This document shows positions 54,432-56,977 of a DNA stretch of 64,000 nt, in pieces. A model generated the notes under the pieces. The model did not search any database. It was not told the DNA's origin and saw only the letters and a program-made list of their open reading frames with translations. The translations under genes were made by a program, and so were the position numbers. Positions within the stretch are counted from its first letter, which is position 1, and each line of letters starts with the position of its first letter. Source of the DNA: Methylocystis iwaonis (GTDB lineage Bacteria; Pseudomonadota; Alphaproteobacteria; Rhizobiales; Beijerinckiaceae); NCBI RefSeq assembly GCF_027925385.1, contig NZ_AP027142.1, positions 2,462,001-2,526,000 of the forward strand, in the 5' to 3' direction.

Positions 54432-54521
54432 GGAAGGGTGGCCGAGTGGTTTAAGGCAGCGGTCTTGAAAACCGCCGTGGGGGCAACTCCACCGTGGGTT
54501 CGAATCCCACCTCTTCCGCCA
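54432..54521 (+). tRNA. tRNA-Ser (anticodon TGA)
   Basis: The acceptor stem is GGAAGGG/CTCTTCC (one G-U pair), discriminator G with encoded CCA. The D-arm TGGCCGAGTGGTTTAAGGC, anticodon loop CTTGAAA (TGA), long class II variable arm (GTGGGGGCAACTCCAC) and T-loop GGTTCGAATCCC are present. The AT-richer segment carrying the deaminase begins directly after its 3' end, as is typical for islands inserted next to tRNA genes. Confidence 0.97.
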
Positions 54522-54782
54522 TTTTTCTAGTAAAATCAATGGATTGCTGACAATATCTTTGACTCGGCCTATCGCCTGCCATAACGGCAGTCGAAATAGG
54601 TTCAACCGAAACTTGGGTTAGTCAGCGAAAACGATGCAGACAGTAGCGTGCGCGTGGCGCGATGCGTCGGCGCAAAAGAGCGGGTTTCAAAGTGCAAATA
54701 AGGGTTTAAGCGCTTCTCAGCCTCTACGCCGGGACTCAGTTCGCGTCGTTCACTGACAGAACCTTTTGCGCCCTGCCCTCGG

Positions 54783-55010
54783 TCAACCAATGTGAGAGGC
54801 GAGTTTTAGGATCGCATCGAAATAATTTGACCTCTCATTGCTCAGCTTCTTTGCCCGATGTTTTTCCAAGCAGACGATATCGGCTGACCCGTCTAAGTCG
54901 TCGCCGTGACCGGCTGAGGGTGCGCGCACCTGCTCTGATTGGCGGACCTGCTTCTCAGCATCTATTGAAGCGGAGAAGTTGAACGATAACTGGGTTTGCT
55001 CCTCACGCAT
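54783..55010 (-). CDS. Small protein overlapping the deaminase gene; possible accessory component
   Basis: A 75-aa product if started at the ATG at 55010 (MREEQTQLSFNFSASIDAEK), which has GGAGG eight bases upstream and lies across the deaminase stop codon; in-frame GTG (55025) and ATG (55016) starts are alternatives. The N-terminus is polar with an LSFNF motif, the middle acidic (GHGDDLDGSAD), the C-terminus basic and helical (VCLEKHRAKKLSNERSNYFD). Not recognised. The overlap means it is translated with the deaminase gene. Confidence 0.62.
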   Translation of the reverse strand: MREEQTQLSFNFSASIDAEKQVRQSEQVRAPSAGHGDDLDGSADIVCLEKHRAKKLSNERSNYFDAILKLASHIG

Positions 55011-56586
55011 CGCCATCTCCTCCACCCTCTGAATCGGGGATAAGCTTTTTTTCTTTCAACCCCTTTAACACGATGGCTTCGAGGGTCGGAAGCGCCTCTA
55101 GTGTCTTGTCGAATCTAGGCTGTGAATCTTGTGGATCAACTAGAATCATTTTCCCTCCGCTCTTCCGGCCAGCTTGCGGCATCCTGAAGAGCTTTAAATA
55201 GCGCGAAGGAGCGACTCCGTCGTACGGGAGAATCCGAACCTTCGACTTGTCAGATTCCTCTTCAGTGATGGAATCGTCGTGCAACTTCGTTGCCAAACTT
55301 TTCCGGTAAGGCTCGATATAGAATACCTCTGTAATTCCCGCTGCAATTATGTGTCGCGCGCAATTATGGCAAGGATACGTTGTAATATAAATCTTGCCAC
55401 CCACTATAGAACCCTTAGCTGTTTGGCCAGCATTAATTATTGCATGCATTTCTGCATGCACAGATCGAGAAAACTCTATCAAATTTTTTATTTTGCTGTT
55501 CTTCGAAATTATTGACGATATCGCTTCCTTATGTCCATTATCTATGATGCCAGAGTTGACCAGCTCAGCTGCCAGAATCTGAGATATTTGATCCTTCTCA
55601 TCATCGTTAAAACATCTTCCGCCTTTTAGGTTCCAACAGCGCCTGTCATTATCCGAGTGAGGATCGTTCACAGGGTCAGTCATATACAGATTGCCCCCGT
55701 ACTTGGGCACATCGTTCCAACCGGTCGAGATTACCGCTCCACTCTGGTCAGTTAGCGCAGCCCCTACCTGCCTAGATAAGCACGCGGAATTCGTAGCGGC
55801 AGATGCAGCCGCATACATGGCCGTCTCAGCTGCGGTTGGCGTAACAACTTTCGTTCCCAGAATTAATTGCAGGAACCGTTCGACTCTGGTTTTGATTTGA
55901 CTGTCCGTGTCAGTATCAATGCGGAGAAAAAAGTCAGCGTGAGGAAAGGTGTCTCGGACTGTTTGACCATGGGCGAATTCTTCACCAGAGTCTTGGTCAA
56001 CAAGTTCGTAAATCTCGGAGAGCTTCATTCCACTTTGTTCGAGTGCTTTTACACGTGCCGGAAGCGGAGAAAAGACGCCAATAACATAGACCATATCGCG
56101 ATACACGAGCCGTAGAAGATCAAGCTCCTCCTGATTTTTAATCGAGTCGATGATATGGCAAATTCTACGCGGCCGAAACGCCGCCGACTCACTAGCTTCT
56201 TTATGCTTGGTTCGTTCAAGGGCAATCTCGCTTACAGCAAGTTCTGCAAGAATGCTGTTTCCATGTTGCTTGCGTAGCGAGTCGCCGCCTTCTATCAGTG
56301 CTTTCGTTCTTTCGTATGCAGTAGCGCTTGGCGCAACGCTTTCATGTTGCTCAATCAATCGACTTAAGCGCAATACGATACACGGGTCGTAACCGAATTC
56401 TTTTTTAAGGCTTTTTTCAAAAGCCTCCGCCACCTTATGCAATGGTGAACCGATGGGTCCGCAGAGAGCGATAACAAGCTCGCTCGTGTGCGAGTTTTTG
56501 ATTTGATGCTGCGCATTGAAGAGGTCATTAACTGGCCGTATGCTCGCGCGCTTGATAGCTGGTCTAGACGCCAACTTAATCTCCAC
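55003..56586 (-). CDS. Anti-phage dCTP deaminase-type protein (P-loop-like domain plus cytidine deaminase)
   Basis: A 527-aa two-domain protein. The N-terminal half (about 35-245) resembles a P-loop nucleotide kinase fold, with ELVIALCGPIGSPLHKVAEA at 36-55; the loop lacks the usual G-K-S/T ending. The C-terminal half is a zinc-dependent deaminase: SRQVGAALTD near 271, H377-A378-E379 and P405-C406-x-x-C409, with an extra cysteine pair C317/C325. Size and order match the DcdV/AvcD family, which removes dCTP/dCMP during phage infection. The annotated start is GTG; a TTG at 56574 with GGAG six bases before it is plausible. Base composition is clearly AT-richer than the neighbours, indicating transfer. 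Confidence 0.85.
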   Translation of the reverse strand: MEIKLASRPAIKRASIRPVNDLFNAQHQIKNSHTSELVIALCGPIGSPLHKVAEAFEKSLKKEFGYDPCIVLRLSRLIEQHESVAPSATAYERTKALIEGGDSLRKQHGNSILAELAVSEIALERTKHKEASESAAFRPRRICHIIDSIKNQEELDLLRLVYRDMVYVIGVFSPLPARVKALEQSGMKLSEIYELVDQDSGEEFAHGQTVRDTFPHADFFLRIDTDTDSQIKTRVERFLQLILGTKVVTPTAAETAMYAAASAATNSACLSRQVGAALTDQSGAVISTGWNDVPKYGGNLYMTDPVNDPHSDNDRRCWNLKGGRCFNDDEKDQISQILAAELVNSGIIDNGHKEAISSIISKNSKIKNLIEFSRSVHAEMHAIINAGQTAKGSIVGGKIYITTYPCHNCARHIIAAGITEVFYIEPYRKSLATKLHDDSITEEESDKSKVRILPYDGVAPSRYLKLFRMPQAGRKSGGKMILVDPQDSQPRFDKTLEALPTLEAIVLKGLKEKKLIPDSEGGGDGDA

Positions 56587-56800
56587 TGAATCAAGAAAAT
56601 CACCTGGAATCAGGCAAAATCGTATCTCTCTGCGTTTACGGCGCGCAAGAGCCTAAACAGACTGATACTACATGTATTGATGCAACCCTTTCATTTATCT
56701 CATATTGTGAATTTCTCGGTGCGACCGCGCACAGCTCTGGGGCGCGCGCTCCGCTTAACTCCCTCCCACGCCGCAAGGGCGTCACTAGAAGGAGTTTCCC

Positions 56801-56932: not shown

Positions 56933-56977
56933 AACCGGGCGGATCGCCCATCTCGCGCCAAGAGCGCGTCCGCCCGC

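Follow-up and report, generated by a model that had tools for sequence, protein, structure and literature searches.

A dCTP deaminase gene beside tRNA-Ser in Methylocystis iwaonis and its conserved small partner with a clamp-binding-like motif

What occupies the short AT-rich block that follows a tRNA-Ser(UGA) gene of Methylocystis iwaonis, and does its large gene act alone? The block lies near the right end of the window, the 64,000-nucleotide stretch of contig NZ_AP027142.1 (assembly GCF_027925385.1, positions 2,462,001 to 2,526,000) analyzed here. An initial annotation, made from the letters alone, described a defence island with one sizeable gene, an anti-phage dCTP deaminase. Our analysis suggests instead, with a probability of roughly 0.5, a horizontally acquired two-gene anti-phage dCTP-depletion module at a tRNA-Ser hot spot, in which a small partner protein would restrain the deaminase and link it to the DnaN sliding clamp.

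The deaminase and its small partner gene

The features that carry this proposal are as follows.
55003..56586, minus strand: anti-phage dCTP deaminase, 527 aa from GTG (NF041025, PADLOC, structure model)
56437..56463, minus strand: P-loop position, residues 42-50, CGPIGSPLH, no Walker lysine (sequence and model)
55450..55458, minus strand: zinc/catalytic motif H377-A-E379 (invariant in a 40-row alignment)
55360..55374, minus strand: zinc motif P405-C-H-N-C409 (P405, C406 and C409 invariant in the 40 rows)
55051..55092, minus strand: C-terminal helix, residues 499-512, with the ALPTLE tail (sequence comparison and model)
54783..55010, minus strand: small partner gene, 75 aa from ATG at 55010 or 80 aa from GTG at 55025 (open reading frame list and conservation)
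54789..54869, minus strand: helix predicted at the C-terminal end of the partner, covering residues 53-79 of the 80-aa form (model; predicted local distance difference test [pLDDT] 92-96 for this block)
54975..54992, minus strand: QLSFNF, sliding-clamp-binding-like hexapeptide of the partner, relaxed form (motif comparison)

Apart from the deaminase, no large frame fits the segment; by its profile matches, the enzyme is a member of a known family. It scores 480.3 bits against NF041025, the anti-phage dCTP deaminase model (cut-off 400; profile positions 1-434 of 437), and 550.8 bits against the PADLOC dCTPase model, and it carries the HAE and PCxxC zinc motifs and the kinase-like and deaminase domains of NF041025. 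The motif positions given initially (H377-A-E, P-C-x-x-C at 405-409) proved exact. Best matches to housekeeping dCMP deaminases, which the initial annotation had named as evidence against its own family call, did not materialize: housekeeping models stayed far under their cut-offs, and that identity was ruled out (ComEB, 43 bits against 219). The reported P-loop-like N-terminus stands as to fold, which is adenylate-kinase-like in the predicted two-domain structure (pLDDT 85), but not as to the loop, GPIGSPLH, which lacks the Walker lysine. None of the AvcD-type rows inspected shows the ALPTLE tail in this form. Membership in this family suggests that the enzyme acts on dCTP/dCMP and protects from phage.

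The single-gene picture overlooked a second, small gene at the 3' end of the deaminase. Its first 8 nt, counted from the ATG, are shared with the end of the deaminase gene, and GGAGGAG stands 6 nt ahead of that ATG. A hidden Markov model (HMM) built from nine proteobacterial copies and run on all 7194 frames of 104 loci placed frames right behind a deaminase at ranks 1-35, including those of untrained Bacteroidota loci; rank 3 comes with a flag, since it relied on an upstream start. Of the 104 deaminases, 96 were long and complete enough for a tree built by a quick method with in-frame stops converted to X (the structure alignment omitted L011 and L040, which have such stops). The window's clade comprises 62 rows (Shimodaira-Hasegawa-like approximate likelihood ratio test [SH-aLRT] 100) from Pseudomonadota, Bacteroidota, Myxococcota, Nitrospirota and Peregrinibacteriota, and 60 of its 61 testable loci have a small frame downstream of the deaminase. 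The mere presence of a small frame should not be overread, as it is common (84/101 deaminase loci versus 580/1224 random positions). The window's deaminase falls outside the AvcD-type clade of eight rows (SH-aLRT 100), a label resting on enterotoxigenic Escherichia coli, E. coli, Photobacterium and Vibrio plasmid loci, with Vibrio AvcD itself outside the tree.

The partner also bears a coding signature. Across nine pairs of relatives that we chose, each locus being used once, its ratio of nonsynonymous to synonymous differences (pN/pS) was 0.26-0.74 and below that of both shifted frames in every pair (pooled Fisher p 8e-21; six of the nine pairs <0.05 singly). Nucleotide identity of the partner was about that of the deaminase in six pairs. 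A scan of 372 genomes of the class returned two partner matches below E 1e-14, the window's and that of G097, both adjoining a same-clade deaminase, and four weaker ones (E 8e-4 to 7e-3) that are partial or stop-broken. Judged by this conservation, the deaminase and the small gene form a unit.

Nine extra loci yielded a partner-like frame in three, namely L157 (QLSFNL), L158 (QFRLEL) and L165 (QLELNF); L160 and L162-L164 have none, and the frame of L161 is unlike the partner. L165 is a contig from a viral collection (IMGVR_UViG_2840489000_000001) with a deaminase of 54% identity and the QLELNF partner. Since it carries both genes, the pair may travel on phages.

Database comparisons left the partner unnamed. 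Nothing among solved structures fell under E 0.97; no Pfam family hit two or more of the 25 members compared (lowest E 0.0056), and none hit the window's copy; and neither NCBIfam nor PADLOC matched that copy. A homolog search with the partner alignment returned 11 proteins, the named ones hypothetical or uncharacterised. Deaminases of the Vibrio nigripulchritudo-type branch are followed by a different small frame, which has an E-x-W-P-x-W-like motif (L119:3463-3645, L124:3006-3188, L128, L129, L131); this frame family showed no match to the clamp-motif partner family.

The clamp-binding-like motif and the role of the partner

The structure model of the partner combines an N-terminal half of low confidence with the confident helix at 53-79, and the most conserved block of the protein lies near its N-terminus (Q in 46, L in 42, L/F/I/M in 50 and F/L in 47 of 51 rows; some rows of this column table and of alignment A1 were selected with a motif-like expression). 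A 2024 review (PMC11139829) gives two patterns for the sliding-clamp-binding motif, Q-phi-x-[LM][FL] and Q-phi-x-[LM]-x-[FL], with QLxLF and QLxLxF as the best forms, and names LQLELDF as the most abundant phage-display peptide. We scored these two patterns as strict and counted as relaxed those that also allow F or I at position 4. Among the 60 clade partner frames set by position, 24 were strict and 44 relaxed; control frames at random positions in the same loci gave 84 and 136 of 4073, respectively, by slightly looser patterns. The motif is thus enriched across the partner family relative to random-position frames. Four members carry five-residue forms, QLDLF or QLSLF (L020, L021, L053, L032). 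In the other branches, 15 frames stand behind 31 deaminases and 2 fit, as QI[EP]MLL (L002, from the relative G022, and L125). The N-terminus of the partner looks disordered, with a predicted sliding-clamp-binding-like motif.

These counts replace an earlier, looser one (46/61 relaxed, 29/61 strict) that accepted F, V or A as the second residue, included L122 (outside the tree clade) and left out L046 (only 123 nt downstream), and took a spurious QASLL in L060. L046, L058, L150, L151 and L156 had been omitted from the earlier positional count, and L123, identical to L004, is counted beside it. A further count of 43/58 motif-bearing rows is not relied on because some rows were chosen with a motif-like expression.

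We infer from this architecture a mechanism in which the C-terminal helix of the partner would bind and restrain the deaminase, while its disordered N-terminus would dock on DnaN through the QLxLxF-type motif, so that the enzyme would be kept inactive near healthy replisomes. Infection could trigger release by halting host gene expression, with loss of a labile partner, or by stripping clamps. The released enzyme, with its adenylate-kinase-like and dCMP-deaminase domains, would then convert deoxycytidine to deoxyuridine nucleotides and starve phage DNA synthesis.

The same architecture, a motif in a disordered arm beside a separate conserved helix, is that of an adaptor, and no clamp motif was found within the window's deaminase itself. 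The partner may accordingly be a targeting subunit rather than an inhibitor, one that tethers the deaminase to clamps at the fork and has dCTP destroyed where DNA is made. We regard this main alternative as unlikely: dCTP diffuses, and local depletion would presumably gain little, while the C-terminal half of the partner resembles a frame that occupies the antitoxin's position in AvcD-type loci (see below), which favours restraint. It is about equally doubtful that the partner restrains or assists the deaminase while the target of its QLxLxF block is the deaminase itself or a different host protein instead of the clamp. The strict motif is indeed missed by the window's copy and by 36 of the 60 clade copies, with F and I common at position 4, but the enrichment lies far above controls, the Gln is of the invariant type, and the five- and six-residue canonical forms interchange.

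Restraint by the partner draws further on the AvcD-type loci, all eight of which have an upstream frame of 50-78 aa and similar make, chosen by us among several frames by place and C-terminal likeness. This frame is annotated as a hypothetical protein in four of them (L114:1273-1458, L115:705-887, L116:1678-1848, L118:1709-1894), and the same holds at L166:922-1104, L173:1032-1220 and L174:869-1054. In one pair, E. coli versus Klebsiella, its pN/pS was 0.49, the other frames giving 1.84 and 1.12; the stretch therefore looks coding, which does not contradict an RNA role. The first four untrained matches of an upstream-frame HMM were downstream partners, all weak (E 0.14-1.2). The program hhalign aligned the C-terminal halves of the upstream and downstream families with a score of 19.3 (P 0.0011), against 11.3 for the best of 200 random sets and 10.1 for an unrelated small-frame family. 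The downstream partner and the AvcD-type upstream frame are thus likely, not proven, homologs.

Several observations weigh against restraint by a clamp-docking partner. The QLSFNF of the window has Phe at position 4 and fits the relaxed motif only, 16 of the 60 clade frames lack even that form, and in L006 and L142 the positional rule chose a frame other than the partner. The window's own partner lies outside the coding test, its nearest copy with DNA being 26% identical and saturated, and L159, a relative of the G022 type among the nine extra loci, has no partner-like frame. The hhalign probability for the upstream/downstream link is just 21%, and the AvcD-type upstream frames are without a canonical clamp motif. 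PMC10511110 describes AvcI as a noncoding RNA, one that binds to AvcD and disappears once transcription stops. Lastly, a terminator-like hairpin stands just upstream of the window's deaminase (56617-56600; 5 such sites in all versus 2.7 expected), leaving room for an RNA antitoxin here too.

The hairpin and the standing of AvcID as the characterised relative (PMC10511110) would suit a plain AvcID-like system in which an upstream antitoxin RNA holds the deaminase and the downstream small gene is incidental. We consider this improbable, the least favoured of the alternatives. An Rfam scan returned the tRNA only, plus one match below the gathering score on its other strand, and the folding z-score is just -1.46. 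The 210 nt upstream were not conserved above the best of 20 shuffles in 6/6 pairs, two of them close and the test blunt, with short BLAST matches upstream in two pairs of relatives. The downstream gene, by contrast, is conserved.

The tRNA-Ser site and the acquired segment

The setting of the two genes is defined by three further features.
54432..54521, plus strand: tRNA-Ser(UGA) (ARAGORN)
54508-54521, plus strand: last 14 bases of the tRNA; elements inserted here in relatives are bounded by this repeat
54522..56713, strand not applicable: AT-rich, putatively acquired segment (GC content and homology breakpoints against relatives)

The drop in base composition reported from the tRNA to about 56.7 kb was borne out by the GC and codon profiles. 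The GC content of 54522-56713 is 0.482, against 0.637 for the whole window and a minimum of 0.599 among 1149 sliding 2192-bp windows outside the segment, and GC at third codon positions is 0.475 in the deaminase versus 0.73-0.82 in four neighbouring genes. On the left, homology to 17 relatives stops at the last base of the tRNA or within 5 bases of it. On the right, homology resumes at 56714 in G022 and at 56966 in G006, a genome of the same species; the restart in G022 makes 56713/56714 the best estimate of the right edge.

We examined 20 stretches of relatives at this locus, 17 of which include the tRNA. Of the 153 pairs among 18 downstream stretches (the window's included), 23 share at least 150 bp, and in none does the first shared stretch start less than 100 bases from the tRNA in both members. 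In relatives this site is occupied by larger integrase-borne elements with defence-type genes. That of G006 spans 12.9 kb, with a tyrosine integrase and an AT-rich block, and ends in a 14-bp stretch that copies the tRNA end perfectly (L094:15867). G022 has a 12.3-kb element (L095:1048-13336) with an integrase, type III restriction-modification genes and a dCTP deaminase, bounded by the same perfect copy (L095:13323). The G022 deaminase lies 0.9 kb from the tRNA and is 42% identical to the window's; as each genome carries one there, the site took up two different dCTP deaminases. The 14-bp copy recurs downstream in 3 of the 17 relatives (G006, G022, G007). Integrases like those of G006 and G022 also occur in G011 and G014 (there in two pieces), with partial or weak matches in G007 and G001. 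From these sequences, the tRNA-Ser end is an integration hot spot in relatives, in agreement with the insertion point proposed initially.

Two side observations concern this site. The AT-rich block of G006 holds four genes (L094:9733-14711: a C5 methyltransferase, HD-CE, an ORC-CDC6-like ATPase and a CARF-like protein) and looks like a defence operon. In G001, a 65-base stretch about 13.4 kb away from the tRNA (L105:391-455) copies the 3' part of tRNA-Ser at 97% and may mark where another element ends.

The window's segment shares with tRNA-integrated islands its start at a tRNA 3' end, its odd composition and its absence from a near relative. In keeping with the initial annotation, searches of the window found no integrase resembling those of G006 or G022 and no second copy of the tRNA end, two island hallmarks that both those genomes possess. 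Acquired defence DNA at the tRNA gene is supported, although "island" is generous for 2.2 kb.

Deaminases of the NF041025-type family occur in 3 of 39 genomes of the genus: the window's, G022 and G032, the last with a 308-aa frame at a contig end that is closest to the Vibrio nigripulchritudo type. G006 has no relative of the deaminase. In the sampled class and phylum, 14/385 and 11/398 genomes exceed the family cut-off. A genus-wide gene at one locus with normal phylogeny, which would have spoken against acquisition, is not what these genomes present; vertical inheritance in the genus is ruled out by the patchy presence and the tree, and horizontal acquisition of the segment is supported. The acquired defence module proposed initially therefore holds, but not as a lone gene, and it belongs to a distinct clade.

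Significance and comparison with known systems

Nucleotide-depleting defences are known, and the restraint and triggering of a deoxycytidine deaminase have been described for AvcID, via RNA. Searches of an open-licence library brought up no paper that connects, in its title or the opening of its abstract, a dCTP deaminase to either the sliding clamp or a small protein encoded downstream, and as far as those searches go a deaminase clade with a downstream clamp-motif partner is new. Our tentative generalization, to which we give somewhat less than even odds, is that many anti-phage dCTP deaminases in several phyla use a clamp-docking small partner through which the state of the replisome would control nucleotide depletion. 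The same family, without the clamp motif, may stand at the place of AvcI, so that AvcD-type systems could be controlled by protein besides or instead of RNA. If so, a conserved protein partner with a clamp-like motif would link replisome state directly to dCTP depletion, the annotation of such systems and what must be cloned for tests would change, and one would have to ask whether RNA is the sole antitoxin in relatives of AvcID.

Among known systems, NF041025 (DcdV/AvcD; dCTPase in PADLOC) shares with the window a two-domain protein above the curated cut-off and the same zinc motifs. The window's protein differs in its separate 62-row clade (SH-aLRT 100), its ALPxLE tail, the small gene downstream, and the loop GPIGSPLH in place of the G-x-x-G-x-G-x-K found in 5/7 plasmid loci. 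The AvcID type III toxin-antitoxin system likewise pairs a deoxycytidine deaminase with a small neighbour, and the C-terminal half of the partner resembles the AvcD-type upstream frame. Unlike AvcI, an upstream noncoding RNA according to PMC10511110, the window's neighbour lies downstream and looks protein-coding, and its deaminase is outside the AvcD-type clade.

Clamp ligands whose binding motif sits in a disordered N-terminus, such as Hda (PAQLSLPLYL; PMC11139829), share with the partner the pattern Q-L-x-[LFIM]-x-[FL], which falls in its low-confidence N-terminal arm. The partner, with a predicted motif and just a C-terminal helix, is without their AAA+ or polymerase domain. RipAB of Streptococcus pneumoniae is a toxin-antitoxin pair as well; according to PMC12795458, DnaN is what its toxin acts on. 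By description, it resembles the window's system as a toxin-antitoxin pair linked to the sliding clamp; in RipAB the toxin itself acts on the clamp, whereas here the predicted clamp motif belongs to the partner of the deaminase.
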